64,000 nt of DNA from NCBI GenBank assembly GCA_019635285.1, contig JAHBZS010000001.1:171609-235608 (forward strand), in the 5' to 3' direction. The translations under genes were made by a program, and so were the position numbers. Source of the DNA: Rubrivivax sp. Its GTDB lineage: Bacteria > Pseudomonadota > Gammaproteobacteria > Burkholderiales > Burkholderiaceae_C. Position 1 is the stretch's first letter. Each line of letters starts with the position of its first letter. Under the pieces are notes generated by a model. It ran no database searches. It saw only the letters and a program-made list of their open reading frames with translations, and was not told the origin of the DNA. This document shows positions 10,742 through 48,637 of the stretch, one piece after another.

Positions 10742-11763
<1,022 letters not shown>

Positions 11764-31700: not shown

Positions 31701-32960
31701 TCAAAGTGTTCCGTTGATGGCGTAATCGAAGATCTGGTAGCTCTTCGGTGACTGGCCCGCCGCCTTGATGCGGTAGGCCTCGTTCAGCGGCCGGTTCAGG
31801 ATGAACGGCACCTTCGTCTCCGACGTGCCGCCGTGCGTGCGCAGGCGGTGGCCCTTCAGCCCGCTGAGGTCGTGGTTCTTGGCCGAGCTGCCGATGCACC
31901 AGTTCTCGTGCGCGATCACCGCCACGTCGCCTTCGCGGTCGGGCGGCATGTCGAACATGCGGCAGGCGGTCTCGCGGTCCAGCGCCAGCTCCACGCCTTC
32001 GGCGTCGCCGATGGCGTCGATGATCTGCCGCGCCGTCACCTGGCCCTTGGACCAGACGCGCACGAAGCCGCCCAGCGCGCCGTGGTGCGCGACGAAGGCG
32101 TCGGTGATCGGGCAGATAACGGTGGTGGTGCCGGCGCCCAGCTTGGCGTCCAGCAGGTCCTGCAGCCACAGCACCTGCGGCTCGCCGTCGGCCGTGCTCT
32201 TGTCGCTCATGCCGTGGTCGGCGGTCAGCGCGACGGTGGCGTCCAGCGCCATCAGCCGGCCGACGCAGTCGTCGAGCTTGCGATAGAACTCGCGCGCGCC
32301 GTCTTCGTCCGGCGCCCACTTGTGCTGCACCCAGTCGGTCAGCGACAGGTACAGCAGCTCCGGCCGGCGCTCGCGCAGCAGCTTGATGCCGGCTTCCAGC
32401 ACCAGCAGGCTCAGCTCCATCGAATACATGCCCGGCTGCGCCATGCCCAGCCAGGGCAGCACGTCTTCAATGCCGTTCTCGGCCAGCGTGCACTGGCCGG
32501 CAAATTCGCTGGAGAAGGACACATGGCCCTGGCGCACGTCCAGGCCCTTGCCCAGCTGCTTGCGCAGCTTGTCCTTGGCGGTGATCGTCACCACCTTGGC
32601 GCCGGCGGCGGCGAACTTGGCGATGATGGTGTCGCCGCGCAGCAGCTCCGGCCCGGTCATGACCACCGGCTGCCAGGTGGCGGTGTCCAGGTAGAAGTTG
32701 CCCGAGATGCCGTGCCGCGCCGTCGGCGTGCCGGTGATGATCGACATGTTGTTCGGGCAGGTGAACGACGGCATCGAGCCTTCGGCCACCGCCGCATGGC
32801 CTTCGCGCACGCAGCGCGCGATGTTCGGCGTCGTGCCGTCGGCCAGGAACTGCTGCAGGTAGCGGGGGTCGCCGCCGTCGATGCACACCACCACCACCGG
32901 GCGCAGCGGCCAGCGGTAGTCGGTGCCATTGACCTGGACGGCGGCGCGGGTCGTGCTCAT
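31701..32960 (-). CDS. phnA: Phosphonoacetate hydrolase PhnA
   Basis: Alkaline-phosphatase-superfamily zinc enzyme, 419 residues, that splits the C-P bond of phosphonoacetate into acetate and phosphate. Metal ligands are visible in VVCIDGGDPRYL (Asp), TADHGMSDKS (Asp, His) and CIGSSAKNHDL; the nucleophile is the threonine in MPSFTCPNN (T67). It is the last step of the AEP route through phosphonoacetate; no PhnX-type phosphonatase is present in the window. It lies 20 bp after phnR. It is not the unrelated E. coli protein that shares the symbol. Confidence 0.93.
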   Translation of the reverse strand: MSTTRAAVQVNGTDYRWPLRPVVVVCIDGGDPRYLQQFLADGTTPNIARCVREGHAAVAEGSMPSFTCPNNMSIITGTPTARHGISGNFYLDTATWQPVVMTGPELLRGDTIIAKFAAAGAKVVTITAKDKLRKQLGKGLDVRQGHVSFSSEFAGQCTLAENGIEDVLPWLGMAQPGMYSMELSLLVLEAGIKLLRERRPELLYLSLTDWVQHKWAPDEDGAREFYRKLDDCVGRLMALDATVALTADHGMSDKSTADGEPQVLWLQDLLDAKLGAGTTTVICPITDAFVAHHGALGGFVRVWSKGQVTARQIIDAIGDAEGVELALDRETACRMFDMPPDREGDVAVIAHENWCIGSSAKNHDLSGLKGHRLRTHGGTSETKVPFILNRPLNEAYRIKAAGQSPKSYQIFDYAINGTL

Positions 32961-32980: not shown

Positions 32981-33694
32981 TCAGGGCCGCGGCGCCGGCG
33001 CGCCCAGCGCCGCATGCAGGCGGGCCCGGCTGGCCAGCACATGCTCGCCCAGCAGGGCCTGCGCGCGCTGCTCGTCGCGCGCCGCGACGGCTTCGATGAT
33101 GGCCTCGTGCTCGGCGGTGGACGTGGGAATGTGGTCGGTGCCGTGCGCGATGGTCGCGCGGCGGTACAGGTCGAGCTGGTTGACGATGCCGCGGTACTGC
33201 GCCAGCAGCGCGTTGTTGCGCGCCGCGCGCGCCAGCAGGTCGTGGAACTCGACGTTGAGGGCGAAGTATTCGTCGGCCTTGCGGCTCTTCTGCGTGAGGT
33301 GCATGCGCCGCACCACGGCGCGCAGCGCCTCGATCTCGTCGATGGCGATGCGCCGCGCCGCCAGCTGGCCGATCAGGCCTTCCAGCGCGACCCGCACCTC
33401 GTAGAACTCGTTGGCCTCTTCCACCGAGACCTGGCGCACGAACACGCCGCGGTTCTTTTCCACGCGCACCAGCCCGGCCTGCGCCAGCGCGCTGAAGGCC
33501 TCGCGCACCGGCCCGCGCGAGATGCCCAGGGTGGTGGCCATGTCCACCTCGTTGAGCTTGGTGCCGGCGGCGATCTCGCCGGAGATGATGCGCCGCTCCA
33601 GCTCCTGCTGCGCCAGCGTGGCCAGCGAATGCGCGCGCAGCACTTCGATGGCCGTCGAGGCGTCGGCCGGCCGCTTGGTCGTCACACTGGGCAT
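32981..33694 (-). CDS. phnR: GntR/FadR-type regulator of phosphonate utilisation
   Basis: A 237-residue regulator with a GntR winged helix (LNEVDMATTLGISRGPVREAFSAL) and an FCD ligand domain with its metal-site histidines (FHDLLARAARN, HEAIIEAV). Its place and type match the regulator found in Burkholderia-type AEP loci. The ATG at 33694 has no Shine-Dalgarno, and the likely promoter (TTGACA-17-GAAAAT on the minus strand) would start transcription almost at the ATG, so it may be leaderless. A longer start at 33733 is less likely because it would sit inside the promoter. It heads phnR-phnA-pbfA-phnY. Confidence 0.87.
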   Translation of the reverse strand: MPSVTTKRPADASTAIEVLRAHSLATLAQQELERRIISGEIAAGTKLNEVDMATTLGISRGPVREAFSALAQAGLVRVEKNRGVFVRQVSVEEANEFYEVRVALEGLIGQLAARRIAIDEIEALRAVVRRMHLTQKSRKADEYFALNVEFHDLLARAARNNALLAQYRGIVNQLDLYRRATIAHGTDHIPTSTAEHEAIIEAVAARDEQRAQALLGEHVLASRARLHAALGAPAPRP

Positions 33695-33701
33695 GGGTTG
33701 G

Positions 33702-33740
33702 ATTTTCGGGGCGACATTGCCGATTGTCAACAACAGACAA
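33702..33740 (-). promoter_or_regulatory. phnR promoter overlapped by a candidate operator
   Basis: On the minus strand TTGACA (33730 to 33725), 17 bp, GAAAAT (33707 to 33702) forms a promoter. The -35 is inside the dyad TTGTC-N7-GACAA (33724-33740). A related sequence (12 of 17 identical, sharing TGTCAACAA) is found at 37547-37563 between nptA and phnS, which suggests a shared regulator such as PhnR. Confidence 0.5.
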
Positions 33741-33742
33741 AA

Positions 33743-34780
33743 TCAGAGCGCAGGATCGACGAAGCGCACGCCCTGTGTCTGCGCGCGCAGGCGCGGGTCC
33801 AGCGACGCCACGCTGAGGGGCTGGCCGCGCAACGCCTCGAAGCAGCGCGCCAGGGTCTCGTCCTCCAGGCGCTGCATCGCCTCCTGCGTATAGAAGGTCA
33901 GGTGCGGCCACAGCATGACGTTGTCCATTGCATAGAGTGCAGCCAGCGCATGACCGGCGCGTGACAGCGGCTCGCGGCCATACACGTCGAGTGCGGCACC
34001 GGCGAGACGCTGCTGCTGCAGCGCCTGCAGCAGCGCGGCCTCGTCGACGATCTCGCCGCGAGACACGTTGACCAAGAAGGCGGTGGGCTTCATGCGCGCC
34101 AGTTGCGCGGCGCCGAGCAGGTGGCGCGTCTGCGCGTTGAGCACGCAGTGCACCGAGACCGCGTCGCTGGCCTGCAGCAGCGCGTCCAGGCTGTCGCAGC
34201 GCTGCACGCCGGCGGGCACGGCCTCGGGCGGAACATGCGGGTCGTAGGCCAGCACGCGCATGCGGAAGGCGCCGGCCATGCGCGCCATGCTGCGCCCGAT
34301 GCGCCCCAGCCCCACCAGCCCCAGCGTCTTGCCGGCCAGGTCGGCGGCCAGCCAGCGTGCTTCGGGCCAGGCCCAGCCGTCCGTCTGCATGGCCTGGTGG
34401 ATCGGCTTGAAGCGCTTGAACAGCGCCATCAGCAGCGCGAACGCGCCTTCGGCCACCGTCTCCTCGGCATAGGCCGGCACGTTGACCACCGGGATGCCGC
34501 GTGCGCGCGCCGCCGCGATGTCGATGGCGTCGATGCCCACGCCGTACTTGACGATGGCCTTCAAGCGCGTGGCGCCGGCAATCACCGCGGCGGTCACCGG
34601 CGTGTAGCACATCAGCAGCAGGTCGGCGTCGGCCACCTCGCGCGCCAGCAGCGCCTCGGGCGCGCCGTCGGCCAGCAGCACCAGCTGGGCGCCGGCCTCG
34701 CGCAGGCGCGCGTCGACCGTCGGCATTTGCAGTTCGCGGTCGGTGCGCACGACCTTGAAGTGGCGGGGCAGATCGTTCAA
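33743..34780 (-). CDS. D-isomer-specific 2-hydroxyacid dehydrogenase
   Basis: NAD(P)H-dependent 2-hydroxyacid dehydrogenase fold, 345 residues: IVKYGVGIDAIDI in the substrate domain, the nucleotide motif GLVGLGRIGRSMARM, the catalytic Arg in NVSRGEIVDEAAL, and the catalytic His in LWPHLTFYTQEAM. It interconverts a 2-keto acid and its 2-hydroxy acid; the substrate is unknown. It lies between the EamA gene (13 bp upstream) and phnR (49 bp downstream), inside the phosphonate region. A phosphonate substrate such as phosphonopyruvate is possible but only inferred. Confidence 0.82.
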   Translation of the reverse strand: MNDLPRHFKVVRTDRELQMPTVDARLREAGAQLVLLADGAPEALLAREVADADLLLMCYTPVTAAVIAGATRLKAIVKYGVGIDAIDIAAARARGIPVVNVPAYAEETVAEGAFALLMALFKRFKPIHQAMQTDGWAWPEARWLAADLAGKTLGLVGLGRIGRSMARMAGAFRMRVLAYDPHVPPEAVPAGVQRCDSLDALLQASDAVSVHCVLNAQTRHLLGAAQLARMKPTAFLVNVSRGEIVDEAALLQALQQQRLAGAALDVYGREPLSRAGHALAALYAMDNVMLWPHLTFYTQEAMQRLEDETLARCFEALRGQPLSVASLDPRLRAQTQGVRFVDPAL

Positions 34781-34793
34781 GCCTGGGCTCCTC

Positions 34794-35660
34794 TCAACTC
34801 AGCCGCAGGGCGACGACGCCGCCGACGATGACCACGGCGCCGCAGGCGCGCTGCAGGCCGAAGCGCTCCTTCAGCACCATCACCGACAGCGCGGTGGCGA
34901 ACAGCACCGAGGTCTCGCGCAGCGCCGACACTGCGGCCACCGGCGCGCGCGTCATGGCCCACAGCGCGATCCAGTACGAGCCCAGCGACGCCAGCCCGCC
35001 CAAGGTGGCCAGCGGCCAGCGCCGGCGCGCATAGGCCCGCATCGCCTGCCGCGCCGCGCGGCTGCGCTGCACGAACACCAGCGTCGGGTAGGGAATGCCG
35101 TCCAGCACGAACAGCAGCACGACGTAGCTGGCCGCCGTGTAGCCGGCCTCGGCCGTGATGCGCACGCCGCGGCCGTCGACCAGGGTGTAGGCCGCGATGA
35201 CCACCGCATTGGCCAGCGCAAAGGCGATCGCCCGGCCGTGGTGCAGCGCCTCGGCCGGCCGCGCCAGCCCGACCATCAGCACGCCGACGGTGACCGCGCC
35301 GATGCCCAGCCAGGCCGCCGCGGACAAGTGCTCGCCCAGCGCCACCGTGCTGCCCAGCGCCACCAGCAGCGGCGCGCTGCCGCGCATGATCGGATAGGTG
35401 CTGCCCAGGTCGCCGTGCTGGTAGGCGCCGTTCAGCGTCACGTAGTAGGCGATGTGCACCAGCAGCGACATGCCGATGAAGGGCCAGGCGGCCACGGGCG
35501 GCAAGCCCACCCACCACAGCAGCGGCAGCGCGGCGATGCCGCCCAGCAGATGCACCAGCGCCAGGTCCAGCTGCTTGTCGCCGCTGGACTTGACCAGCGC
35601 GTTCCAGGTCGCGTGCAGCAACGCGCCCAGCAGCACCGCCAGCACGACGCCGGTGCTCAA
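34794..35660 (-). CDS. EamA/DMT-type membrane protein of phosphonate loci
   Basis: A 288-residue protein with ten predicted membrane helices in two EamA repeats (first beginning MSTGVVLAVLLGALLHATWN, second with ALRETSVLFATALSVMVLKE). Members of this subgroup occur beside phosphonate genes in Burkholderiales and are named 'phosphonate utilisation associated membrane protein'; the cargo is not known. Drug/metabolite export would be the general function, so it may export an intermediate. It is 13 bp from the hydroxyacid dehydrogenase, probably co-transcribed. Confidence 0.82.
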   Translation of the reverse strand: MSTGVVLAVLLGALLHATWNALVKSSGDKQLDLALVHLLGGIAALPLLWWVGLPPVAAWPFIGMSLLVHIAYYVTLNGAYQHGDLGSTYPIMRGSAPLLVALGSTVALGEHLSAAAWLGIGAVTVGVLMVGLARPAEALHHGRAIAFALANAVVIAAYTLVDGRGVRITAEAGYTAASYVVLLFVLDGIPYPTLVFVQRSRAARQAMRAYARRRWPLATLGGLASLGSYWIALWAMTRAPVAAVSALRETSVLFATALSVMVLKERFGLQRACGAVVIVGGVVALRLS

Positions 35661-37478: not shown

Positions 37479-37524
37479 GGACGGCGGGTCGGACCCGCGG
37501 CGGCGACAGGAGCCAGGACGCCCC

Positions 37525-37610
37525 ATTGGACCGTGTCGCGCCTGGAATGTCAACAATCTGCAACCCAGGCGAAAATCCCGTTGACAGGCCGAGGCGCCGG
37601 CACACAACAT
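37525..37610. promoter_or_regulatory. Divergent promoters of nptA-like gene and phnS with shared operator candidate
   Basis: Plus strand: TTGACA (37581-37586), 18 bp, CAACAT (37605-37610) leads to phnS. Minus strand: TTGACA (37553 to 37548), 17 bp, TCCAAT (37530 to 37525) leads to the Na/phosphate gene. The minus-strand -35 lies in ATGTCAACAATCTGCAA (37547-37563), which resembles the site in the phnR promoter. The same protein could therefore control all three units. Promoters are by-eye matches. Confidence 0.5.
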
Positions 37611-37712
37611 GCATGCCCTGTGCCGGGCTGCAGCGGCGTCACGACCGCGTCATGGCCCTGCGGCATCGTCGACCGTTTTTGTCTGTACGCCCACCTTCAC
37701 CAGGAGCCCCTC

Positions 37713-38747
37713 ATGCGCAAACCCGTCCTGTCGCTCGCCGCCCTCACGCTGTGCCTGGCCGCCGGCTCCGCACTGGCGCAGAAGACGCAGTTGCTGGTCT
37801 ACACCGCCCTGGAAACCGACCAGCTGAAGGCCTACCAGGAAGGCTTCAACAAGGTGCACCCCGACATCGAGTTGAAGTGGGTGCGCGACAGCACCGGCGT
37901 GATCACCGCCAAGCTGCTGGCCGAAAAGGGCAACCCGCAGGCCGACGCGGTGATGGGCGTGGCCGCGTCCAGCCTGGCGCTGCTGGACAAGCAGGGCATG
38001 TTGATCCCCTACGCGCCGATCAACCTCGACGCCATCATGAGCGCCTACCGCGACAAGAAGAACCCGCCGGCCTGGTTCGGCATGGACGTGTGGGGCGCCA
38101 CCATCTGCTTCAACACGGTGGAGGCGCAGAAGCGCAACATTCCCAAGCCCGAGACCTGGAAGGACCTGACCAAGCCGGTCTACAAGGGCCAGATCGTCAT
38201 GCCGAACCCGGCCTCGTCGGGCACCGGCTACTTCGACGTCACCGCCTGGCTGACGCTCTGGGGCGACGACAACGGCAAGGGCGGCGGCTGGAAGTACATG
38301 GACGCGCTGCACGAGAACATCGCGCAGTACACGCATTCGGGCAGCAAGCCCTGCAACATGGCGGCGGCCGGCGAATACGTGCTGGGCATCAGCTTCGAAT
38401 ACCGCGCCAATGCCAACAAGGCCAAGGGCGCGCCGATCGACCTGGTGTTCCCCAAGGAAGGGCTGGGCTGGGACCTGGAAGCCTTCGCCATCCACAAGGG
38501 CACCAAGAAGCTCGAGGCCGCCAAGAAGCTGGCCGACTGGGCGAGCAGCAAGGACGCGATGCTGCTGTACGGCAAGAACTTCGCCATCACCGCGCAGCCG
38601 GGCGTGGCCGCGCCGCTGGCCAACGTGCCCAAGGACTACGAGGCACGCCTGGTGAAGATGAACTTCGACTGGGCCGCCGAGAACCGCGAGCGCATCCTCG
38701 ACGAGTGGAACAAGCGCTACAACGCGAAGAGCGAGCCGAAGAAATAA
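37713..38747 (+). CDS. phnS: 2-aminoethylphosphonate ABC transporter substrate-binding protein
   Basis: Periplasmic binding protein of 344 residues; the signal peptide MRKPVLSLAALTLCLAAGSALA is cleaved after residue 22. It belongs to the iron/spermidine-type binding proteins (KTQLLVYTALETDQ, WVRDSTGVITAKLLAEKGNPQAD), which is the type used for AEP in Burkholderia. Context (phnT, fused permease, phnW) supports AEP as ligand. AGGAG lies 6 bases before the ATG. It leads the operon and is followed by the third copy of the 83-bp repeat. Confidence 0.9.
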   Translation: MRKPVLSLAALTLCLAAGSALAQKTQLLVYTALETDQLKAYQEGFNKVHPDIELKWVRDSTGVITAKLLAEKGNPQADAVMGVAASSLALLDKQGMLIPYAPINLDAIMSAYRDKKNPPAWFGMDVWGATICFNTVEAQKRNIPKPETWKDLTKPVYKGQIVMPNPASSGTGYFDVTAWLTLWGDDNGKGGGWKYMDALHENIAQYTHSGSKPCNMAAAGEYVLGISFEYRANANKAKGAPIDLVFPKEGLGWDLEAFAIHKGTKKLEAAKKLADWASSKDAMLLYGKNFAITAQPGVAAPLANVPKDYEARLVKMNFDWAAENRERILDEWNKRYNAKSEPKK

Positions 38748-38748
38748 G

Positions 38749-38831
38749 CCCACCGCAGCGGCTGCGGCCGCCTCCCCCCCAGGGGGCGCCGCCCGCGGCC
38801 CGGCCGAGCCGGTTCCGTGGCGGCCGCTCGA
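38749..38831 (+). repeat. Dispersed downstream repeat, copy C
   Basis: Third copy of the 83-bp element, starting one base after the phnS stop with CCCACC and ending GCGGCCGCTCGA. It carries CCCCCC-AGGGGG and CGGCC...GGCCG arms. It lies between the binding-protein gene and the ATPase gene, where a stem-loop often keeps the binding-protein mRNA more abundant. Confidence 0.72.
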
Positions 38832-38865
38832 GGTGGGTGCTTCCCGATCCGCTGAAGGTCCTCTC

Positions 38866-39927
38866 TTGACGCCCTATCTCAAGCTCGAAGGCATCCGCAA
38901 GGACTACGGCAGCTTCACCGCGCTGCGCGACATCGACCTGGACATCGCCAAGGGCGAGTTCGTCTGCTTCCTGGGGCCGTCGGGCTGCGGCAAGACCACC
39001 TTGCTGCGCATCGTCGCCGGGCTGGAGGCGCAGAGCGCCGGGCGCATCCAGATGGCCGGGCGCGACATCTCGGTGTTGCCGCCGGCGCAGCGCGACTACG
39101 GCATCGTCTTCCAGTCCTACGCGCTGTTTCCCAACCTCAGCGTGGCGGACAACGTGGCCTACGGCCTGGTCAACCGCAGGATGCCGCGCGCCGAGGCGCG
39201 CGCGCGCGTCGACGAACTGCTGCAGCTGGTGGGCCTGCCCGGCAGCCAGGGCAAGTTCCCGGCGCAGCTGTCCGGCGGGCAGCAGCAGCGCATCGCGCTG
39301 GCGCGCGCGCTGGCCACCGCGCCGGGGCTGCTGCTGCTGGACGAGCCGCTGTCGGCGCTGGATGCCATCGTGCGCGTGCACCTTCGGCAAGAGATCCGCA
39401 GCCTGCAGCGCAAGCTGGGCGTGACCACCATCATGGTCACGCACGACCAGGAGGAGGCGCTGGCCGTGGCCGACCGCATCGTGGTCATGAACCACGGCGT
39501 CATCGAGCACGTGGGCACGCCGCTGCAGGTCTACCGCGACCCCGGCACGCCCTTCGTCGCCGACTTCGTCGGCCGCATCAACGTGCTGCCGGCGCGCCTG
39601 GCCGAAGGCCAGCGCGTGGCCTTCGCCGACACGCTGTTCCACTGCCCGCACGACGGCCCGCCGGGCAGCGAGGTGAAGATCTACCTGCGGCCCGAGGATG
39701 TGCTGGCGCGGCCCATCGCACCGGGCGACAGCAACGTCTTCGACGCGCAGATCGACAAGATCGAGTTCCTCGGCTCGTACTGCCTGGTGCACGTGCGCGC
39801 CGAGGCGCTGGGCACGCTGCTGCTGACGGTCTACCTGTCGCTGAACTTCCTGGCCGAGCAGCGGCTGGAAGTCGGTGCGCGGCTGCCGCTGCGCCTGCTG
39901 CCCGAGCGCATGCGCATTTTTGCCTGA
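38866..39927 (+). CDS. phnT: 2-aminoethylphosphonate ABC transporter ATPase
   Basis: ABC ATPase of the spermidine/iron type, 353 residues. Walker A GPSGCGKTT, Q-loop QSYALFPNLSV, signature LSGGQQQR, Walker B LLLDEPLSALDA, switch His in VTHDQEEA, then a TOBE-type C-terminal domain. Start taken as TTG at 38866 (LTPYLKLEGIRK), which has GAAGG 7 bases upstream; a GTG at 38833 would put 11 extra residues on the protein and overlaps the repeat. It energises the PhnS/PhnUV importer. Confidence 0.88.
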   Translation: MTPYLKLEGIRKDYGSFTALRDIDLDIAKGEFVCFLGPSGCGKTTLLRIVAGLEAQSAGRIQMAGRDISVLPPAQRDYGIVFQSYALFPNLSVADNVAYGLVNRRMPRAEARARVDELLQLVGLPGSQGKFPAQLSGGQQQRIALARALATAPGLLLLDEPLSALDAIVRVHLRQEIRSLQRKLGVTTIMVTHDQEEALAVADRIVVMNHGVIEHVGTPLQVYRDPGTPFVADFVGRINVLPARLAEGQRVAFADTLFHCPHDGPPGSEVKIYLRPEDVLARPIAPGDSNVFDAQIDKIEFLGSYCLVHVRAEALGTLLLTVYLSLNFLAEQRLEVGARLPLRLLPERMRIFA

Positions 39928-39932
39928 CGCGC

Positions 39933-41642
39933 TTGAACACCACCGCCCTTCCCGCCCCGGCCCGCGTCGCGCTGCGCGTGCACTGGACCGACCGCCTGGC
40001 CCACGGGGCGCTGGCGCTGGTGGCGCTGCTGCTGCTGGCCTTCCTGGCGGCGCCGCTGCTGGCCGTGCTGCAGAAGTCGGTGCAGGACAGCCAAGAGCAG
40101 TGGGTCGGGCTGAAGAACTTCATCGAATATGCACGCACGCCGGCGCTGCTGCAGTCGCTGTGGAACAGCCTGTGGGTGTCGGCGCTGGTCACCGTGCTCA
40201 CCGTGCCCGCCGCCTTCGGCTTCGCCTACGCGTTGACGCGCAGCTGCATGCGCTTCAAGCGGCTGCAGCGCGGCATCACGCTGATCCCGCTGCTGGCGCC
40301 GTCGCTGCTCAGCGCGATCTCGCTGATCTACTGGTTCGGCAACCAGGGCGTGCTGAAGTCCTGGCTGGACGTGTGGGGCATCGAGCAGATCTACGGCGCG
40401 CCCGGCATCGTCATCGCCGAGGTCTTTGCGCTGTTCCCGCACGCGCTGATGATCCTGGTGACCGCGCTGGCCACCGCCGATGCGCGGCTGTACGAAGCCG
40501 CGGACGCGATGGGCACCGGCGCGGCGCGCAAGTTCTGGACGATCACGCTGCCCGGCGCCAAGTACGGGTTGATCTCGGCGGCGCTGGTGGTCTTCACGCT
40601 GGTCATCACCGACTTCGGCATTCCCAAGGTCATCGGCGGCAACTTCAACGTGCTGGCCACCGACGTGTTCAAGCTGGTCATCGGCCAGCAGGACTTCCAG
40701 AAGGGCGCGGTGGTGGCGCTGCTGCTGCTGGCGCCGGCGGTGCTCACTTTCAGCATCGACCACCTGGTGCAGCGCAAGCAGACGGCGATGCTCAGCGCCC
40801 GCGCCGTGCCCTACCGGCCCAAGCCCGCGCCGCTGTACGACGGCGTGATGCAGCTGTACTGCGGGCTGATCGCGCTGCTCATGCTGGCCATGCTGGGCAT
40901 GGCCATCTTCGCCTCCTTCGTCAAGTTCTGGCCCTACGACCTGAGCTTCAGCTGGCGCCACTACCAGACCGGCCTGGTCGAAGGCGAGGTGGCCACCGGC
41001 TTCGTCAACAGCCTGACCATGGCCGCCGGCACCGCGCTGTTCGGCACGGCCATCGTCTTCGTCGGCGCCTACCTGCTGGAGAAGACCCACGGCGCCGGCG
41101 CCTTGCGCAGCACGGTGCGCCTGCTGTCGATGCTGCCGATGGCGGTGCCCGGGCTGGTGCTGGGCCTGGGCTACATCTTCTTCTTCAACGAAGCGGCCAA
41201 CCCGCTGAACGGCCTGTACCACACGCTGACGCTGCTGACGATCTGCAGCATCGTGCACTTCTACACCACCGGCCACCTGACGGCGGTGACGGCGCTGAAG
41301 TCGCTGGACGCCGAGTTCGAGTCGGTCTCGGCGTCGCTGAAGGTGCCGTTCTACCGCACCTTCTGGCGCGTCACGCTGCCCATCTGCACGCCGGCGCTGG
41401 TGGACATCGCACGCTACTTCTTCGTCAATGCCATGACCACGATCTCGGCCGTGGTCTTCTTGTATTCGCCCGAGACCAAAGTGGCGTCGATCGCCATCCT
41501 CAACCTCGACGAAGCCGGCGAGACCGGCGCCGCTGCAGCGATGGCGCTGCTCATCGCCGCCGCCTCCAGCGTGGCCACGCTGCTGTTCATGGGCCTGTCC
41601 TGGCTCATCGAACGCCGCACGCAGGCCTGGAAGAACCCCTGA
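39933..41642 (+). CDS. Fused 2-aminoethylphosphonate ABC transporter permease (PhnU-PhnV)
   Basis: A 569-residue permease made of two MetI-type permease units in one chain, each with about six membrane segments; EAA-type loops are seen in LYEAADAMGTGAARKFWTITLPG and near residue 460 (FESVSASLKVPFYRTFWRVT). This fused form is the AEP-associated one in betaproteobacteria; E. coli-type systems have two genes. The start codon is TTG at 39933, 5 bp after phnT, and no Shine-Dalgarno is obvious, which implies coupling to phnT. Confidence 0.87.
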   Translation: MNTTALPAPARVALRVHWTDRLAHGALALVALLLLAFLAAPLLAVLQKSVQDSQEQWVGLKNFIEYARTPALLQSLWNSLWVSALVTVLTVPAAFGFAYALTRSCMRFKRLQRGITLIPLLAPSLLSAISLIYWFGNQGVLKSWLDVWGIEQIYGAPGIVIAEVFALFPHALMILVTALATADARLYEAADAMGTGAARKFWTITLPGAKYGLISAALVVFTLVITDFGIPKVIGGNFNVLATDVFKLVIGQQDFQKGAVVALLLLAPAVLTFSIDHLVQRKQTAMLSARAVPYRPKPAPLYDGVMQLYCGLIALLMLAMLGMAIFASFVKFWPYDLSFSWRHYQTGLVEGEVATGFVNSLTMAAGTALFGTAIVFVGAYLLEKTHGAGALRSTVRLLSMLPMAVPGLVLGLGYIFFFNEAANPLNGLYHTLTLLTICSIVHFYTTGHLTAVTALKSLDAEFESVSASLKVPFYRTFWRVTLPICTPALVDIARYFFVNAMTTISAVVFLYSPETKVASIAILNLDEAGETGAAAAMALLIAAASSVATLLFMGLSWLIERRTQAWKNP

Positions 41643-41654
41643 AGGACCGCCCCC

Positions 41655-42773
41655 ATGGACCGCGACCGCATCCTGCTCACCCCCGGCCCGCTGACGACCA
41701 CGCTGCGCACCAAGCTGGCCATGCTCAAGGACTGGGGCAGCTGGGACGCCGACTTCAATGCCATCACCGCGCGGCTGCGCGGCCGGCTGCTGGACATCGT
41801 TCAGGGCCACGACACGCACGTCGTCGTGCCGCTGCAGGGCAGCGGCACCTTCAGCGTCGAAGCCGCGGTGGCCACGCTGGTGCCGCGCGACGGCCACGTG
41901 CTGGTGCCCGACAACGGCGCCTACTGCAAGCGCGCCGGCAAGCTGACGCAGATGATGGGGCGCAAGGCCACCGTGCTGCCCTTCGCCGAGGACCAGCCGG
42001 TCTCGGCGGCGGCGGTGGACCAACGCCTGCAGGCCGACCCGTCGATCACCCACGTGGTGCTGATCCACTGCGAAACCGGCACCGGCGTCGAGAACCCGCT
42101 GGCCGCGGTCGCCGCGGTGTGCCGCAAGCACGGCAAGGGGCTGATCGTCGACGCCATGTCCAGCTTCGCGGCGCTGCCCATCGATGCGCGCGAGCTGCAG
42201 TTCGACGCGCTGGTGGCGGCCAGCGGCAAGTGCCTGGAAGGCGTGCCCGGCATGGGCTTCGTCTTCATCCGCAAGGCGGTGCTCGACGGCTGCGCCGGCA
42301 ACAGCCAGAGCCTGGCCATGGACCTGCACGACCAGCATGTCTACATGGGCAAGACCGGCCAGTGGCGCTTCACGCCGCCGACGCACGTGGTGGCGGCGCT
42401 GGACGAGGCCACCGCGCAGTTCGTCGAAGAAGGCGGCCAACCGGCACGGCTGGCGCGCTACACCGACAACTGCCGCACGCTCATCGACGGCATGGCCCGG
42501 CTCGGCTTCAAGCCCTTCCTGCAGCCCGCCGTGCAGGCGCCGATCATCGTCACCTTCCACGCGCCGGCGCACGCCGCCTACGACTTCAAGCGCTTCTACG
42601 AAGGCGCCAAGCAGCGCGGCTTCATCCTCTATCCGGGCAAGCTCACCGAGGTCGAGACCTTCCGCGTCGGCTGCATCGGCGCGATCGGCCGCAACGAGAT
42701 GAACCAGGCGGTGCATGCGGTGGCCGACACGCTGCGCGAGATGGGCATTCCCGACGGCCGGCCGGCGCGCTAG
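41655..42773 (+). CDS. phnW: 2-aminoethylphosphonate:pyruvate transaminase PhnW
   Basis: Class V PLP transaminase, 372 residues, normal for PhnW. It converts AEP and pyruvate to phosphonoacetaldehyde and alanine. N-terminal [13 protein letters not shown] Asp in IVDAMSS (D166) and PLP Lys K192 in [12 protein letters not shown] fit. GAAGGA lies before the ATG. Placed 12 bp after the permease gene, it makes the product that phnY (minus strand) oxidises. Confidence 0.95.
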
Positions 42774-42794
42774 GCCGCGACAAGGAAGCGACAC

Positions 42795-44174
42795 ATGGCC
42801 AGCAAGAAAATCCCCGAGCACCCCGCGCTGCAGGCGATCCGCGACGAAGGCCATGCCAAGGTCAAGGTCGCGGTCAGCGACATCGACGGCATCCTGCGCG
42901 GCAAGCTGCTGCACCGGGACAAGTTCTTCGGCGCGGCGCAGCCGCATCCGGCCGGCGGCTTCGGCTTCTGCGACGTGGTCTTCGGCTGGGACGCGCACGA
43001 CGTCTGCTACGACAACACCCAGGTCACCGGCTGGCAGCACGGCTTTCCCGACGCGCTGGCGCGGCTGGACCTGGGCACCGCGCGGCGCGTGCCCTGGGAC
43101 GGCGGCGTGCCCTTCTTCCTGGGCGAGTTCGTCAATGCCGACGGCAGCCCCTACCCGGTGTGCCCGCGCCAGACCCTGAAGCGCGTGCTGGCGCGGGCGC
43201 GCAAGCTCGGCTTCGAGGTGATGGCCGGCATGGAGTTCGAGTGGTTCAACTTTGCCGAGACGCCGCAGAGCTGGGCCGCCAAGCAGGGCGTGGGGCCGAC
43301 GACCATCACGCCCGGCATGTTCGGCTACTCGCTGCTGCGCATGGGCGACCAGCGCGGCTTCTTCAATGCGCTGATGGACGAGATGCTGGCCTTCGGCGTG
43401 CCCATCGAAGGGCTGCACACCGAGACCGGGCCGGGCGTCTACGAAGCCGCCATCGCCTTCAGTGAGGCCTTGGAAGCCGCCGACCGCGCCATCCTCTTCA
43501 AGACCGGCGCCAAGGAGATCGGCAAGCGCTTCGGCGTGATGCCCAGCTTCATGGCCAAGTGGAGCCAGCACTACCCCGGCTGCAGCGGCCACATCCACCA
43601 GAGCCTGTCCGACGGCAAGCGCAACCTGTTCTTCGATGCGAAGAACGCGCGCCGCATGAGCCCGCTGTTCGAGAGCTACCTCGCCGGCCAGGTGGCCTGC
43701 ATGATGGACTTCGCGCCGCTGATCTGGCCGACGATCAACAGCTACAAGCGGCTGGTCGACGGCTTCTGGGCGCCGGTCAAGCCGACTTGGGGGCTGGACA
43801 ACCGCACCGCCAGCTTCCGCGTCATCGCCGGCAGCCCGAAGAGCACGCGGCTGGAGACGCGCTGCCCCGGCGCCGACGTCAACCCCTACCTGGCGATGGC
43901 CGCGGTCATCGCCGCCGGGCTGCACGGCGTGGAGAAGGGGCTGAAGCTGACGGCGCCGCCGATCACCGGCACCAACCAGGGCGCAGACCACATCCCGCGC
44001 GCGCCGCGCTCGCTGATCGAGACGACGCGCATCTTCCGCGACAGCGCCATCGCGCGCGACTGGCTCGGCGACACCTTCGTCGAGCACTTCGCCGCGACGC
44101 GCGAATGGGAGTGGCGCCAGTGGCAGGACGGCGTCACCGACTGGGAGCTGAAACGCTACTTCGAGATCATCTGA
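42795..44174 (+). CDS. Glutamine-synthetase-like gamma-glutamyl-amine ligase
   Basis: A 459-residue glutamine-synthetase-fold enzyme of the PuuA/GlnA4/IpuC type, rather than GlnA. Metal-site Glu in MAGMEFEWFNF and HTETGPGVYEAA, ATP/glutamate site in GCSGHIHQSLSDG, and the Arg loop in NRTASFRVIAGSP. Such ligases attach glutamate to an amine (putrescine, isopropylamine, ethanolamine) with ATP. AAGGAAG precedes the ATG, and the gene starts only 21 bp after phnW. The following genes (alcohol dehydrogenase, gamma-glutamyl hydrolase, aldehyde dehydrogenase) suggest an amino alcohol such as ethanolamine as substrate. True glutamine synthesis or AEP glutamylation cannot be excluded. Confidence 0.85.
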   Translation: MASKKIPEHPALQAIRDEGHAKVKVAVSDIDGILRGKLLHRDKFFGAAQPHPAGGFGFCDVVFGWDAHDVCYDNTQVTGWQHGFPDALARLDLGTARRVPWDGGVPFFLGEFVNADGSPYPVCPRQTLKRVLARARKLGFEVMAGMEFEWFNFAETPQSWAAKQGVGPTTITPGMFGYSLLRMGDQRGFFNALMDEMLAFGVPIEGLHTETGPGVYEAAIAFSEALEAADRAILFKTGAKEIGKRFGVMPSFMAKWSQHYPGCSGHIHQSLSDGKRNLFFDAKNARRMSPLFESYLAGQVACMMDFAPLIWPTINSYKRLVDGFWAPVKPTWGLDNRTASFRVIAGSPKSTRLETRCPGADVNPYLAMAAVIAAGLHGVEKGLKLTAPPITGTNQGADHIPRAPRSLIETTRIFRDSAIARDWLGDTFVEHFAATREWEWRQWQDGVTDWELKRYFEII

Positions 44175-44200
44175 GTGCATCGCCTGCCACGGAGACCGCC

Positions 44201-44614
44201 ATGACACGCCAACTCGCCTGGGTCCTGATGCTGGCCGGTGCCGCGCTGCCGGCGCTGGCGCAGCAGAGCGCCAACGACATCGAGATGCTGACCAAACATG
44301 CCGGCACCTGGGCCGTGGACTGCAGCAAGCCGGGCACGCGGCTGGGCGTGGACGTCAAGCGCCTGAGCCTGCAATCCGGCGGCAAGCAGCTGGCCAGCCA
44401 CGCGCCGCCGATGGCGGCGTTCAGCTACTTCGGCCGGCAGGAACCGCCCGCCGGCTTCGAGGTGGCGCTGCTGGCCGAAGCGCCGCACGCCCAGCTGGCG
44501 TTCCTGGTAATGAGCGACAAGACCGGCCCCTACCTGACGGTGGACGCCGACGGACCGACTCTCAAGCTCTTCGGCAAACCCGCGCTGGCCGGCAAGTTCC
44601 GGCGCTGCCCCTGA
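44201..44614 (+). CDS. Small exported protein, unknown function
   Basis: 137 residues with a clear signal peptide (MTRQLAWVLMLAGAALPALA, cut near residue 20). The mature part is short, with two Cys (VDCSKPG and the C-terminal FRRCP) that could form a disulfide. No family recognised. It sits between the glutamine-synthetase-like gene and the iron alcohol dehydrogenase with short gaps (26 and 52 bp), so it is likely co-transcribed and periplasmic. Confidence 0.75.
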   Translation: MTRQLAWVLMLAGAALPALAQQSANDIEMLTKHAGTWAVDCSKPGTRLGVDVKRLSLQSGGKQLASHAPPMAAFSYFGRQEPPAGFEVALLAEAPHAQLAFLVMSDKTGPYLTVDADGPTLKLFGKPALAGKFRRCP

Positions 44615-44666
44615 GGGACATGCAGAATGGGCGTGGTCGTGCGCCCGCCACCGCACCGGAATTGAC

Positions 44667-45800
44667 ATGAGCATCACCCGCTTCGCCTTCCCCACGCCCA
44701 TCCACTTCGGCGCGGGCGCGCGCAAGTTGGTGGCGGCGCATCTGCAAGACGCGGGCTGCCAGCGCCCGTTGATCGTCACTGATCGCGCGCTGGCGGCGCT
44801 GCCGGTGCTGGCCGAGTTCCGCGCGCACCTGGCGCCGCTGCAGGTGGCGGTGTTCGACGGCGTGCACGGCAACCCCACCTGCGCGATGGTCATGGCCGGC
44901 GCGGCGGCGTTCAAGGCGCACGGCGCCGACAGCGTCATCGGCTTCGGCGGCGGCGCCGCGCTGGACGTGGCCAAGGTCGTCGGCCTGATGGCCACGCACG
45001 ACGGCGACGTGCTCGAATACGTGTGGGACCACCCGCAGGTGCGGCCCATCGTCAACCCGCTGCCGCCCTTCGTGGCGCTGCCCACCACCAGCGGCACCGG
45101 CTCCGAGGTCGGCCGCTCGGCGGTGGTCAGCGAGAACGACACGCACGTCAAGCGCACCGTCTTCAGCCCCAAGATCCTGGCGCAGGCGGTGTTCGCCGAC
45201 CCCGAGCTGACGCTGGCGCTGCCGCCGGCCGTCACCGCCGCCACCGGCATGGACGCGCTGACGCACAACATCGAGAGCTACCTGTCGCCGGCCTGGCACC
45301 CGATGTGCGACGGCATCGCGCTCGAAGGCTTGCGCCTGGGCGCGCGCGCGCTGGCCACCGCGGTGGCCGAGCCCGGCAACCTGGCCGCGCGGGCCGACAT
45401 GATGATGAGCTCGCTGATGGGCGCGGTCGCCTTCCAGAAAGACCTGGGCGGCGTGCATGCCTGCGCCCATGCGCTGGGCGCGGTGTGCGACCTGCACCAC
45501 GGCCTGGCCAACGCGCTGATGATCGACACCGTGCTGGCCTGGAACCACGAGGCCGTGCCGGCCAAGTTCGACGAGCTGGCGCATGCCGCCGGCGTAGCGG
45601 GCGGCGGCGCTGCGTTCGTGCCGTGGCTGAAGGCGCTGAAGGCGCGCATCGGCATCGGCAGCCGCCTGGCCGCCCACGGCGTGCGCGCCGAGCAGCTGCC
45701 GCGGCTGGCCGAGCTGGCCGCGGCGGACTTCACCAACGGCACCAATCCCCGGCCGGCCACGGCGACCGACTACGAGCGCCTGCTGCGCCAGGCGATGTAA
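44667..45800 (+). CDS. Iron-containing alcohol dehydrogenase
   Basis: Fe-type (group III) alcohol dehydrogenase, 377 residues. NAD site in GFGGGAALDVAKVVG, conserved PTTSGTGSEV, and the iron ligands in GMDALTHNIESY and CAHALGAVCDLHHG. It oxidises an alcohol to an aldehyde. As it stands between a gamma-glutamyl ligase, a gamma-glutamyl hydrolase and an aldehyde dehydrogenase, its natural substrate may be a gamma-glutamyl amino alcohol such as gamma-glutamyl-ethanolamide; this is inference. Confidence 0.9.
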   Translation: MSITRFAFPTPIHFGAGARKLVAAHLQDAGCQRPLIVTDRALAALPVLAEFRAHLAPLQVAVFDGVHGNPTCAMVMAGAAAFKAHGADSVIGFGGGAALDVAKVVGLMATHDGDVLEYVWDHPQVRPIVNPLPPFVALPTTSGTGSEVGRSAVVSENDTHVKRTVFSPKILAQAVFADPELTLALPPAVTAATGMDALTHNIESYLSPAWHPMCDGIALEGLRLGARALATAVAEPGNLAARADMMMSSLMGAVAFQKDLGGVHACAHALGAVCDLHHGLANALMIDTVLAWNHEAVPAKFDELAHAAGVAGGGAAFVPWLKALKARIGIGSRLAAHGVRAEQLPRLAELAAADFTNGTNPRPATATDYERLLRQAM

Positions 45801-45803
45801 GCC

Positions 45804-46598
45804 ATGCCTTCGCAACCCGCCTGGCCGATGATCGGCGTCTCGGCACGCATCTACTACCCTTCCGGGCCGGTGCTCGACATGGGCGGCGTCTGGACCAAGA
45901 CGCTGCACTACCTGGAGCAGTCGGTGGCGCTGTGGCTGATGCGCGGCGGCGCCATGCCGGTGATGGTGCCGGCGGTGGACGCCGACAGCCTGGTCAAGCG
46001 CTTCGAGGTGCAGCTGACGCAATACGCCGAGGCGCTGGACGGCCTGCTGCTGCAGGGCGGCAACGATGTGGCGCCGCAGAACTACGGCGAAAAACCCCTG
46101 CATGCCGACTGGGCCGGCGACAGCGTGCGCGACCGCTACGAGATGGCGCTGGTGCGTGCCTTCATCAAGGCCGGCAAGCCGGTGTTCGGCATCTGCCGCG
46201 GCTTCCAGCTGCTCAACGTGATGCAAGGCGGCACGCTGTACCAGGACATCGCGACGCAGCGGCCCGATTCGCCGGCGCACCGCGACGCCGCGCGCTACGA
46301 GCGCCACTTCCACGAGATCGAGCTGGTGCCGGGCACGCGGCTGGCGCAGCTGTACCCGCGCGTGAAACGCGCGCGTGTCAACAGCATCCACCACCAGGGC
46401 ATCAAGCGCCTGGCCTCGGACTTCGAGGTCGAGGCGCGCTGCCCCGAAGACGGCATGATCGAGGCCATCCGCCGGCGCGGGCCGGGCTACGTGGCCGCGG
46501 TGCAGTGGCACCCGGAGTTCCAGGCGCACGGCAGCCTGGACGACACCGCCATGCTCAACGATTTCCTCGCTGCCGCGCGCGCCACGCGCGAGCCCTGA
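45804..46598 (+). CDS. PuuD-like gamma-glutamyl-amide hydrolase
   Basis: Class I glutamine-amidotransferase-fold hydrolase, 264 residues, of the gamma-glutamyl-GABA hydrolase (PuuD, peptidase C26) group. Nucleophile C131 in FGICRGFQLLNV, catalytic His/Glu in QWHPEFQ near 235, oxyanion region LLLQGGNDVAPQNYGE. It would free glutamate from a gamma-glutamyl product. Three bp after the alcohol dehydrogenase stop, in the same run. In the classic Puu pathway the product is GABA; here the substrate may be another gamma-glutamyl acid. Confidence 0.9.
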   Translation: MPSQPAWPMIGVSARIYYPSGPVLDMGGVWTKTLHYLEQSVALWLMRGGAMPVMVPAVDADSLVKRFEVQLTQYAEALDGLLLQGGNDVAPQNYGEKPLHADWAGDSVRDRYEMALVRAFIKAGKPVFGICRGFQLLNVMQGGTLYQDIATQRPDSPAHRDAARYERHFHEIELVPGTRLAQLYPRVKRARVNSIHHQGIKRLASDFEVEARCPEDGMIEAIRRRGPGYVAAVQWHPEFQAHGSLDDTAMLNDFLAAARATREP

Positions 46599-46600
46599 AT

Positions 46601-47974
46601 ATGCCCACGCTGGACATCCACAACCCCGCCACGGGCGCCCTGCTCGCCCAGGTGCCCGCCGACGACGCCGCCAGCGTCGCCGCCAAAGCCGCGACCGCCC
46701 GCGCCGCGCAGCCCGCCTGGGCGCGCGTGCCGCTGGCCGAGAAGCTGGCCATGCTGCGGCGCTTCCGCGCGGGCGTCGTCAGCGAGCTCGATGCGCTGGC
46801 CACCACGCTCACGCAGGAGGTCGGCAAGCCCATCGGCCAGGCACGCAACGAGCTCAACGGCCTGCTGCCGCGCATCGACTTCTTCCTGGAGCAGACCGAA
46901 CACACGATCCGCGACGAGCACGTCTTCGACGGCGGCGGCATGCACGAGCAGATCTCGCACATCCCGCTGGGCGTGGTGGCCAACATCTCGGCCTGGAACT
47001 ACCCCTGGTTCGTCGGCGGCAACGTCGTGCTGCCGGCGCTGCTCACCGGCAACACCGTGCTCTACAAGCCGTCGGAATACGCCACGCTGAGCGGCCTGCA
47101 CCTGACGCGGCTGCTGCATGCCGCCGGCGTGCCGGCCGACGCGATGCAATGCCTGGTCGGCGCCGGCGAGGTGGGCAGCGCGCTGCTGCAGCAGCGGCTG
47201 GACGGCCTGTTCTTCACCGGCAGCCATGCCACCGGCGTGCGCATCGCGCAGGCGGTGGCGCCCAAGCTGCTGAAGCTGCAGCTCGAGCTGGGCGGCAAGG
47301 ACCCGGCCTACGTGCGCGCCGATGCCGACCCACGCGCCGCCGCCGAAAGCCTGGCCGACGGCGCCATGTACAACACCGGCCAGAGCTGCTGCTCGGTGGA
47401 GCGCATCTACGTGCACGAGAGCGTGCATGACGACTTCCTCGCGCATTTCGTGGCCACGGTACAGGCCATGCGCCTGGGCGACCCGATGCGCGACGACACC
47501 TACATCGGCGCGATCACGCGCGCGCCGCAGCTGGCCGTGCTGCAGGCCCAGGTGGACGACGCGCTGGCCCGCGGTGCGCGGCTGCACTGCGGCGGGCACA
47601 CGCGCCCCGGCCCCGGCCACTGGTTCGAACCCACGGTGTTCAGCCACGTCGATCACACGATGCAGCTGATGCGCGAGGAGAGCTTCGGCCCGCTCATCGG
47701 CATCCAGAAGGTGCGCGGCGACGACGAGGCGGTGGCGCTGATGAACGACACGCGCTACGGCCTGACGGCCGGCGTCTACACGCGCGACGAGGCCCGGGCG
47801 CAGGCGCTGCTGGCGCAGGTCAACGCCGGCACGGTCTACTGGAACTGCTGCGACCGCGTCAGCCCGCGCCTGCCCTGGTCGGGCCATGGCGACTCGGGCG
47901 TCGGCCTGACGCTGTCCACGCACGGCATCCTGGCCTTCACGCGGCCCAAGGCCTGGCACCTGCGCAGGCCCTGA
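46601..47974 (+). CDS. Aldehyde dehydrogenase
   Basis: NAD(P)-dependent aldehyde dehydrogenase, 457 residues: Asn in NISAWNYPWF, Glu229 in LELGGKDPAYV, nucleophile Cys263 in NTGQSCCSVER. Proteins like this handle amino aldehydes and gamma-glutamyl aldehydes, and also succinate semialdehyde. ATG only 2 bp after the PuuD-like gene. Its stop overlaps the next start as TGATG. Confidence 0.9.
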   Translation: MPTLDIHNPATGALLAQVPADDAASVAAKAATARAAQPAWARVPLAEKLAMLRRFRAGVVSELDALATTLTQEVGKPIGQARNELNGLLPRIDFFLEQTEHTIRDEHVFDGGGMHEQISHIPLGVVANISAWNYPWFVGGNVVLPALLTGNTVLYKPSEYATLSGLHLTRLLHAAGVPADAMQCLVGAGEVGSALLQQRLDGLFFTGSHATGVRIAQAVAPKLLKLQLELGGKDPAYVRADADPRAAAESLADGAMYNTGQSCCSVERIYVHESVHDDFLAHFVATVQAMRLGDPMRDDTYIGAITRAPQLAVLQAQVDDALARGARLHCGGHTRPGPGHWFEPTVFSHVDHTMQLMREESFGPLIGIQKVRGDDEAVALMNDTRYGLTAGVYTRDEARAQALLAQVNAGTVYWNCCDRVSPRLPWSGHGDSGVGLTLSTHGILAFTRPKAWHLRRP

Positions 47975-48636
47975 TGCGGCTGACGCTGTTCGACCTGGAC
48001 CACACGCTGCTCCACGGCGACAGCGACCAGCTGTGGTGCGAGTTCCTGATGGACCGCGGCGTGCTGCCGCGCGAGCCCTTCGCCTCGCTGAACCACGCCA
48101 TGGCGCGCGACTACGCCAGCGGCGCCGTCAGCGCCCAGGCCTTCTGCGACTTCTACATCGGCACGCTGGCCGGGCGCCGCGCCGACGAGTGGCAGGCGCT
48201 GCGCGACACCTTCCTGCAAGCCTGCATCGTGCCGCGCATTCCGGCGGCGGCACACGCGCTGGTCGCCAGGCACCGCGAGGCCGGCGACCTGCTGGTGCTG
48301 ACCACCGCCACCAACCGCTTCCTCAGCGAGCCGAGCGCGGCGCACCTGGGCATCGCGCAGCTGATCGCCACCGAATGCGAGCTGGACGCCGACGGGCGCT
48401 TCAGCGGCCGCAGCCGAGGCACGCTGAACATGCGCGAGGGCAAGGTGCAGCGCCTGCACGACTGGCTGTCGGCCCGGCAGCTGCAGCTGCCGGACTGCGA
48501 CTCGACGCTGTACAGCGACTCGATCAACGACCTGCCGCTGCTCAGCGCCGTGCGGCATGCGGTGGCGGTGAACCCGGACGCCCGCCTGGCCGCGGTGGCC
48601 GCCGAGCGCGGCTGGCCGGTGCTGCGGCTTGACTGA
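47974..48636 (+). CDS. HAD-IB family hydrolase
   Basis: Phosphatase-like HAD protein of 220 residues with DxD motif in LFDLDHTLLHGDS, Thr in VLTTATNRFLS and the Asp pair in YSDSINDLPLL. Related to phosphoserine-phosphatase-like HAD-IB proteins. The stop overlaps the start region of the next gene and the start overlaps the aldehyde dehydrogenase stop (TGATG). The substrate is unknown. Confidence 0.88.
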   Translation: MRLTLFDLDHTLLHGDSDQLWCEFLMDRGVLPREPFASLNHAMARDYASGAVSAQAFCDFYIGTLAGRRADEWQALRDTFLQACIVPRIPAAAHALVARHREAGDLLVLTTATNRFLSEPSAAHLGIAQLIATECELDADGRFSGRSRGTLNMREGKVQRLHDWLSARQLQLPDCDSTLYSDSINDLPLLSAVRHAVAVNPDARLAAVAAERGWPVLRLD

Positions 48637-48637
48637 C

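Follow-up and report, generated by a model that had tools for sequence, protein, structure and literature searches.

The element described here is a run of genes on contig 1 (JAHBZS010000001.1) of a Rubrivivax sp. genome, a 4.9-Mb draft that is 94.5% complete; the window is the whole stretch of 64,000 nucleotides that was analysed. Positions 37713–48636 hold nine plus-strand genes whose boundaries fit exactly by open reading frame (ORF) calls and profile matches: a transporter and a transaminase for aminoethylphosphonate (AEP), a glutamine-synthetase-like ligase, an iron alcohol dehydrogenase (FeADH), a PuuD-like class-I hydrolase, an aldehyde dehydrogenase (ALDH), and a HAD phosphatase (Table 1). 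A first-pass annotation of this DNA had given the run from phnS to the ALDH in this order and over exactly this range. Where it had named four enzymes after phnW, however, the HAD phosphatase is the last gene of the run, and a divergent AEP arm on the minus strand had been missed. The gaps are short in the transporter half (phnS-phnT, 85 bp; phnT-phnUV, 5 bp; phnUV-phnW, 12 bp; phnW-ligase, 21 bp) and, in the second half, measure 492 bp (ligase-FeADH), 3 bp (FeADH-PuuD), and 2 bp (PuuD-ALDH), with an overlap of 1 bp between ALDH and HAD. A small ORF sits inside the 492-bp gap; a Pfam search with it returned no match, and among the fetched loci searched it has relatives only in L005 (68%) and L055 (60%). 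In a simple scan of 37400–49000, six terminator-like sites were found, a number within chance (mean 4.2, sd 2.4). None lies downstream of 42257, and thus none separates phnW from the ligase, the point at which the first-pass annotation had considered a terminator. A single transcript across phnW and the ligase is likely.

The ligase is neither a plain glutamine synthetase nor a gamma-glutamylputrescine synthetase (PuuA). Both identities are ruled out by profile scores, with 200 bits to the GlnA model TIGR00653, which needs 429, and 158 bits to the PuuA model NF045547, which needs 650. A separate, better-scoring GlnA is found elsewhere in the genome, in agreement with the earlier view that this gene is not the plain enzyme, and contig 7 carries two further glutamine-synthetase-like ligases, one of them adjoining a PuuD-like gene. 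The window ligase has its closest relatives in Rubrivivax, Ideonella, and other Burkholderiales. A ligase of this fold that is neither GlnA nor PuuA, in an operon with an alcohol dehydrogenase, an aldehyde dehydrogenase, and a class-I hydrolase, is what a gamma-glutamyl ethanolamine pathway of the GlnA4/Eto type calls for. The ALDH is not PhnY; it reaches 217 of the 635.65 bits of TIGR03250, and the true PhnY lies in the divergent arm. Catalytic motifs are recognisable in the ligase, FeADH, PuuD, ALDH, HAD, and PhnW proteins, and we take their roles to be the usual ones. Taken as a set, the four genes look like a gamma-glutamyl amino-alcohol pathway, as first proposed.

The other half of the cluster concerns AEP. 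The phnW, phnY, and phnA genes all pass curated cut-offs, as do phnS2, phnT2, and phnU2, for which the models themselves are named "putative". The minus-strand arm runs from an EamA membrane protein through a D-2-hydroxyacid dehydrogenase, a PhnR-like GntR regulator, phnA, and pbfA to phnY. Because this arm supplies phnA, pbfA, and phnY to the plus-strand genes, the AEP half is, by its profile matches, a complete phnWYA route plus a hydroxy-AEP lyase.

Table 1. Positions of genes and operator-like sites at the locus, with the evidence behind each name
Feature	Position	Strand	Evidence
phnY, phosphonoacetaldehyde dehydrogenase	28733..30181	-	TIGR03250 841.6 bits, cut-off 635.65; ATG start
pbfA, (R)-1-hydroxy-2-AEP ammonia-lyase	30178..31575	-	NF049939 638.4 bits, cut-off 525
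phnA, phosphonoacetate hydrolase	31701..32960	-	TIGR02335 504.9 bits, cut-off 407.55
GntR regulator, phnR_burk-like	32981..33733	-	TIGR03338 242.2 bits, below cut-off 271.5
Operator-like site ATTGTCAACAAC	33723..33734	.	1 mismatch to consensus; at start of GntR gene
D-2-hydroxyacid dehydrogenase, PbfF (hydroxy-AEP racemase)-like	33743..34780	-	sequence identity, AEP-gene context
EamA membrane protein, phosphonate-associated	34794..35660	-	TIGR03340 227.7 bits, below cut-off 288.15
Operator-like site AATGTCAACAAT	37546..37557	.	1 mismatch to ATTGTNNACAAT; 155 bp before phnS
phnS2, AEP-type ABC substrate-binding protein	37713..38747	+	TIGR03261 504.9 bits, curated cut-off 392.75
phnT2, ABC ATPase	38833..39927	+	TIGR03265 502.9 bits, cut-off 457.7
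phnU2 (fused UV), ABC permease	39933..41642	+	TIGR03262 806.4 bits, cut-off 593.25
phnW, AEP:pyruvate transaminase	41655..42773	+	NF010006 572 bits, cut-off 296
Glutamine-synthetase-like ligase, predicted gamma-glutamylethanolamide synthetase	42795..44174	+	profile scores, PDB neighbours, tree, gene context
Small ORF, 137 aa, ATG at 44201	44201..44614	+	signal-like start
Iron alcohol dehydrogenase, predicted gamma-glutamylethanolamide dehydrogenase	44667..45800	+	NF058672 347 bits, below cut-off 500; metal-ligand motifs
PuuD-like class-I hydrolase, predicted gamma-glutamylglycine hydrolase	45804..46598	+	NF008471 105 bits, below cut-off 266; GICRG, WHPE motifs
Aldehyde dehydrogenase, predicted gamma-glutamyl-aminoacetaldehyde dehydrogenase	46601..47974	+	NF006916 379.5 bits, below cut-off 521
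HAD-IB phosphatase, SerB/HolPase-like, candidate phosphoethanolamine phosphatase	47974..48636	+	profile scores, predicted fold

The joining of AEP genes to the ligase recurs and is not a local chance. Among 80 ligase relatives kept of 349 found, phnW lies within 9 kb of the ligase in 58; when only the 51 with 4.5 kb or more of upstream sequence are counted, the figure is 43. The 135 ligase loci collected gave 121 after deduplication, of which 70 had enough flank and at least 60% identity and were evaluable; FeADH, PuuD, and ALDH are all near the ligase in 56 of these 70, and in 41 of the 51 that are AEP-linked. The 19 loci counted as PhnW-negative have no PhnW within 9 kb, although L121, L123, and L167 keep other AEP genes in the neighbourhood, and PhnW is found farther off in the genomes of L121, L122, L123, and L125. 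Across 200 evenly sampled genomes of the family (matches up to E = 1e-150 for the ligase and 1e-60 for PhnW), the genome search proposed earlier gives the ligase in 36, PhnW in 40, and both in 26 (Fisher p = 8e-15, relatedness ignored). In 25 of the 26, ligase and PhnW share a contig and a strand and are 25–2723 bp apart, measured between match ends; in the 26th they are on separate contigs, and the PhnW contig bears a ligase match behind PhnW (L163). Cultured bacteria that carry the cluster include Polaromonas jejuensis (L068) and Ideonella sp. A 288 (L021). The linkage is present in other families of the order (L126, L115, and L116). Beyond the order none was found in a class sample of 271 genomes, in which, besides the window's own, 15 of 270 have the ligase, 4 have PhnW, and none has both. 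On a Rhizobium leguminosarum plasmid (L180), about 7 kb separates a ligase of 45% identity from a gene whose annotation is AEP-pyruvate transaminase; a PuuD-like gene lies in between, and an ALDH follows. The other genes of this plasmid do not resemble AEP catabolism, and it was not counted. Separately, L167 has an intact phnS (68%; 10202–11224, minus strand) directly before the ligase, and phnT, phnUV, and phnW were not found in its 20-kb stretch.

A conserved operator-like consensus, the inverted repeat ATTGTNNACAAT, precedes these units, and the window has a site before phnS and another at the GntR gene. Of 54 deduplicated loci with PhnS and PhnW, 50 have the repeat, at 1 mismatch or fewer, in the 500 bp ahead of phnS (43 exact; 58 of 63 before deduplication); the four without it are L007, L074, L075, and L126. 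In the 2.35 Mb of fetched loci there are 72 exact copies, compared with 0, 0, 0, 0, 0, and 1 for six rearranged palindromes. In L165, from a genome without a PhnW match, the site lies 89 bp before the ligase, near genes for a PhnR-type regulator (321.9 bits against a cut-off of 271.5) and a permease of the amino-acid type. A PhnR-type protein is the presumed partner of ATTGTNNACAAT. The first-pass annotation had raised the possibility that AEP and ethanolamine are degraded together, and the genes for the two very probably do share an operon and an operator.

The substrate of the ligase set is, judging by gene neighbourhoods, very probably ethanolamine. The gene before the ligase in L072 passes the ethanolamine permease model TIGR00908 (624.7 bits, cut-off 381.75), and those in L073 and L083 fall just under the cut-off (360.2 and 368.5 bits). 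Similar permeases stand beside the ligase in L117, L118, L124, L127, L128, L133, L147, L152, L166, and L170, with L127, L128, and L133 having more distant ligases (49–53% identity). A permease of this kind separates phnW from the ligase in the AEP operons of genomes G393 and G360, the G360 match having one internal stop. Transporter types differ among orthologous ligase operons. (In L125, 134–5021, from another family, the gene calls before the ligase look like a branched-chain-type ABC transporter.)

The unrelated ammonia-lyase route of ethanolamine breakdown, which is B12-dependent and requires EutBC, tells a similar story. EutB is present in 59 of the 200 family genomes but in none of the 26 with ligase and PhnW, and in 1 of 36 ligase genomes versus 58 of 164 others (p = 1.5e-5, relatedness ignored); the window genome, 94.5% complete, gave no EutB match. 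EutB or EutBC lies inside the AEP cluster in four of the 200. In G310 and G463, EutB begins about 75 and about 53 bp behind PhnW by match ends and is followed by EutC and HAD genes, and in G372 (EutB) and G472 (EutB and EutC) these genes close the divergent AEP arm. One of the two ethanolamine routes is found in 36 of 40 PhnW genomes versus 58 of 160 others (p = 3e-10, relatedness ignored). In a tree of 121 ligases, AEP-linked enzymes are interleaved with those from permease-linked and other operons, the AEP-linked label requiring 19 changes, at least 9 of them forced by well-supported branches. Because of this interleaving, a separate substrate for the AEP-linked ligases is unlikely. These observations suggest that two lipid head groups, AEP and ethanolamine, are scavenged together.

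How the ethanolamine moiety would enter the cell is a separate question. No TIGR00908-type permease was found in the window genome or in 23 of the 26 genomes with ligase and PhnW; TRAP-type transporters, EtoX included, were not searched for. The HAD protein could bear on this. Its nearest NCBIfam models are histidinol phosphatases, of which it does not pass the cut-off (233.9 bits, 280 needed), and another gene in the genome, 42% identical to it, does (287.6 bits). The predicted fold (model pLDDT 96.9) is that of phosphoserine phosphatase. A fold search placed phosphorylcholine phosphatase 4as2 at rank 48 (TM 0.73, rmsd 6.4) and gave nothing firm on substrate. Phosphoethanolamine belongs, like phosphoserine and histidinol phosphate, to the 2-aminoalkyl phosphates. 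Because the catalytic DxD motif is at residues 7–9, the protein should be cytosolic. The nearest solved sequences to PhnS are 8x1a, 4r72–4r75, which we take to be hexose-phosphate binders, and the pyridoxal-5-phosphate-binding protein 6wce. On the strength of the fold and substrate kinship of HAD and the phosphate-ligand relatives of PhnS, we propose that PhnSTUV may also bring in phosphoethanolamine, a suggestion that falls somewhat short of an even chance, and, with the same reserve, that HAD may dephosphorylate what enters this way. Such import would explain the permease-less majority of AEP-linked genomes.

The distribution of the HAD gene is suggestive in part. It accompanies the ligase in 37 of 48 loci with PhnS versus 2 of 22 without; by independent pairs (6 pairs, average 3.7 to 0) the association is not significant (median p = 0.125), and we no longer treat it as proven. 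When loci with both PhnS and PhnW are grouped by ethanolamine route, the HAD gene is found in 41 of the 52 that have the gamma-glutamyl set, in 1 of the 3 that have EutB, and in 1 of the 24 lacking either route nearby; L174 (EutBC and HAD) was too short to be counted. Ancestry may explain part of this contrast, because the 24 route-less loci are mostly distant, one having PhnW at 70% or more. Two stricter ideas were dropped: HAD is not strictly tied to the ligase, as it follows phnW and EutBC in L174 and L175 and is found without either route in L188, and it is not a strict alternative to the permease, as L152 and L124 have both.

We consider it probable that the cluster is one regulatory unit for two related nutrients, in which the gamma-glutamyl set degrades ethanolamine. 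In the scheme that we infer, PhnSTUV would import AEP, and PhnW, PhnY, and PhnA would convert it by way of phosphonoacetaldehyde and phosphonoacetate to acetate and phosphate, with PbfA channelling hydroxy-AEP into the same route. The ligase would couple glutamate to ethanolamine at the expense of ATP, FeADH would oxidise the hydroxyl to an aldehyde, ALDH would carry the aldehyde on to gamma-glutamylglycine, and the PuuD-like hydrolase would release glycine and return glutamate. A PhnR-type GntR protein acting on ATTGTNNACAAT would govern the unit. HAD, finally, could dephosphorylate phosphoethanolamine, the oxygen analogue of AEP, imported through PhnSTUV. The fuller form of this idea, which we hold tentatively and judge somewhat less probable than its negation, is that PhnSTUV is a shared AEP/phosphoethanolamine importer and that the cluster covers the whole assimilation of aminoethyl head groups, phosphonate and phosphate alike. 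In that form, which is no firmer in its details, C-P bonds would be handled by PhnW, PhnY, and PhnA and C-O-P bonds by cytosolic HAD, followed by the gamma-glutamyl set or EutBC.

Several observations weigh against a single unit for AEP and ethanolamine. No ligase is found in 14 of 40 PhnW genomes, 10 of 36 ligase genomes (drafts) give no PhnW match, and the same-genus sample genomes G388 and G487 have neither gene. Among the 51 AEP-linked evaluable loci, PuuD was not found in 6 that keep FeADH and ALDH, and another 4 show at most one of the three downstream genes near the ligase; the contig of L143 bears PhnW, ligase, and HAD but none of FeADH, PuuD, and ALDH. Of 32 loci with no nearby PhnW, L165 alone has the operator-like repeat ahead of the ligase; the repeat is missing before phnS in L126, the AEP-linked locus of another family, and the GntR protein of the window scores below the phnR_burk cut-off. 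The sole ligase genome with EutB, G337, is the genome of L165. The closest solved ligases, 11zs (E = 1e-73) and 5dm3 (E = 2.5e-66), are distant from that of the window.

The gamma-glutamyl set could instead act on an amine derived from or resembling AEP, such as hydroxy-AEP or an N-substituted AEP, which would make the whole operon a phosphonate pathway. This was the other possibility raised in the first-pass annotation, and it would account for the tight linkage of ligase to phnW and for the 23 of 26 linked genomes, the window's included, that have no TIGR00908-type permease. We reject it as very unlikely because of the ligase genomes without PhnW, the ethanolamine permeases adjoining close ligase orthologs, and the two genomes with EutBC behind phnW instead; PbfA, moreover, would already serve hydroxy-AEP. 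A different small amine (a polyamine, isopropylamine/alaninol, or propanolamine) is suggested by two IpuC-annotated ligases of Paenarthrobacter aurescens TC1, at 37 and 39% identity, but the poor match to the PuuA model, the two other ligases on contig 7, one with its own PuuD-like neighbour, and neighbour genes that point to ethanolamine make such a substrate improbable. It is also unlikely that two unrelated operons came to lie end to end by chance and were co-inherited. Each half is indeed found without the other, and the association of PhnS with HAD loses significance once relatedness is counted; the repeated label changes on the ligase tree, the linkage in other families, the unrelated EutBC in the same place, and the conserved site before the unit all argue for more than proximity.

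An appreciable possibility, though not one we would call probable, is that ethanolamine is the substrate but enters in its free form, via PhnSTUV or another transporter, with HAD having an unrelated role, for example as a second histidinol phosphatase. The score of HAD to the histidinol-phosphatase model is consistent with this, as are the AEP operon L188, which has HAD and neither ethanolamine route nearby or in genome searches, the coexistence of permease and HAD in L152 and L124, and the lack of HAD in 11 of 48 PhnS-positive ligase loci. On the other side are the above-cut-off histidinol phosphatase elsewhere in the genome and the contrast between loci with the gamma-glutamyl set and route-less loci, for part of which ancestry may account.

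The gamma-glutamyl pathway itself is known from Chromohalobacter, Phaeobacter, and Streptomyces. In Phaeobacter sp. MED193, with relatives in Chromohalobacter salexigens and Agrobacterium, a ligase, an alcohol-stage dehydrogenase, an ALDH, and a gamma-glutamylglycine amidohydrolase share one operon, as here; ethanolamine there is imported by the TRAP transporter EtoVWX and phosphoethanolamine is hydrolysed extracellularly, partly at least by PhoX (PMC10132767), whereas our set adjoins genes for AEP import and catabolism and comes with a HAD phosphatase that should be cytosolic. For the GlnA4 locus of Streptomyces coelicolor the proposed chemistry is the same, a ligation followed by two oxidations and a hydrolysis that yields glycine and glutamate, but the alcohol step is assigned to a short-chain dehydrogenase, and the portions consulted mention no phosphonate genes (PMC6529630). 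Clusters with phnW, phnY, phnA, pbfA, and a PbfF-like dehydrogenase match the AEP half, without mention of ethanolamine genes in the sections seen (PMC8154272, PMC10590968, and PMC12366243). The EutBC route, found in four AEP clusters of the family sample, serves the same nutrient by ammonia-lyase chemistry with unrelated proteins. We found no link between ethanolamine and AEP genes in the parts consulted of PMC9311074, PMC8316502, PMC10574752, and PMC11356716, and no description of the two in one operon among the matches listed from the open-licence literature, seen mostly at title and abstract level, which agrees with the first-pass statement that no described AEP operon contains this set. 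The cluster is thus a super-operon that recurs and combines two known modules; it places a known pathway in a new setting, and we did not find the union of this pathway with AEP genes described.

AEP, called the commonest natural phosphonate (PMC10590968), and phosphoethanolamine, its phosphate-ester twin, are both lipid head groups. A conserved operon handling both, in which either of two unrelated ethanolamine routes can follow the same AEP genes, would tie the recycling of phosphonates to that of phospholipids, and a shared importer with HAD, if real, would be a means of taking up and using an intact phospholipid head group. Such an operon also bears on the Pho-independent phosphoethanolamine and phosphocholine routes inferred for Phaeobacter (PMC10132767).

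Further features stand out in and around the divergent arm and in other AEP clusters. The PbfF-like dehydrogenase of the arm is 60% identical to a pbfA-adjacent gene of Shinella zoogloeoides p1_Teo12 and 62% identical to a gene in Sinorhizobium sp. RAC02, and relatives of 70–76% are found in the Burkholderiales AEP clusters L010, L012, L013, L014, and L126. The PbfF paper names Shinella zoogloeoides and restricts the racemase to two orders of Alphaproteobacteria. A gamma-glutamyltransferase gene (26743–28653, minus strand; TIGR00066 423 bits, cut-off 357.85) lies 79 bp behind phnY. Farther on is an FAD-dependent oxidoreductase with a GcvT domain (21296–23725, minus strand), relatives of which (58–83%) are present in the AEP clusters L053, L068, L126, L160, L163, L178, and L181; unlike PbfB, PbfC, and PbfD, it might, at a guess, be an enzyme for N-methylated AEP. 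An HD-domain oxygenase of the TIGR03276 type (PhnZ-like) recurs in L121 (10490–11035), L176 (3752–4306), and many of the AEP clusters L182–L217, and in L121 it directly adjoins the ligase.

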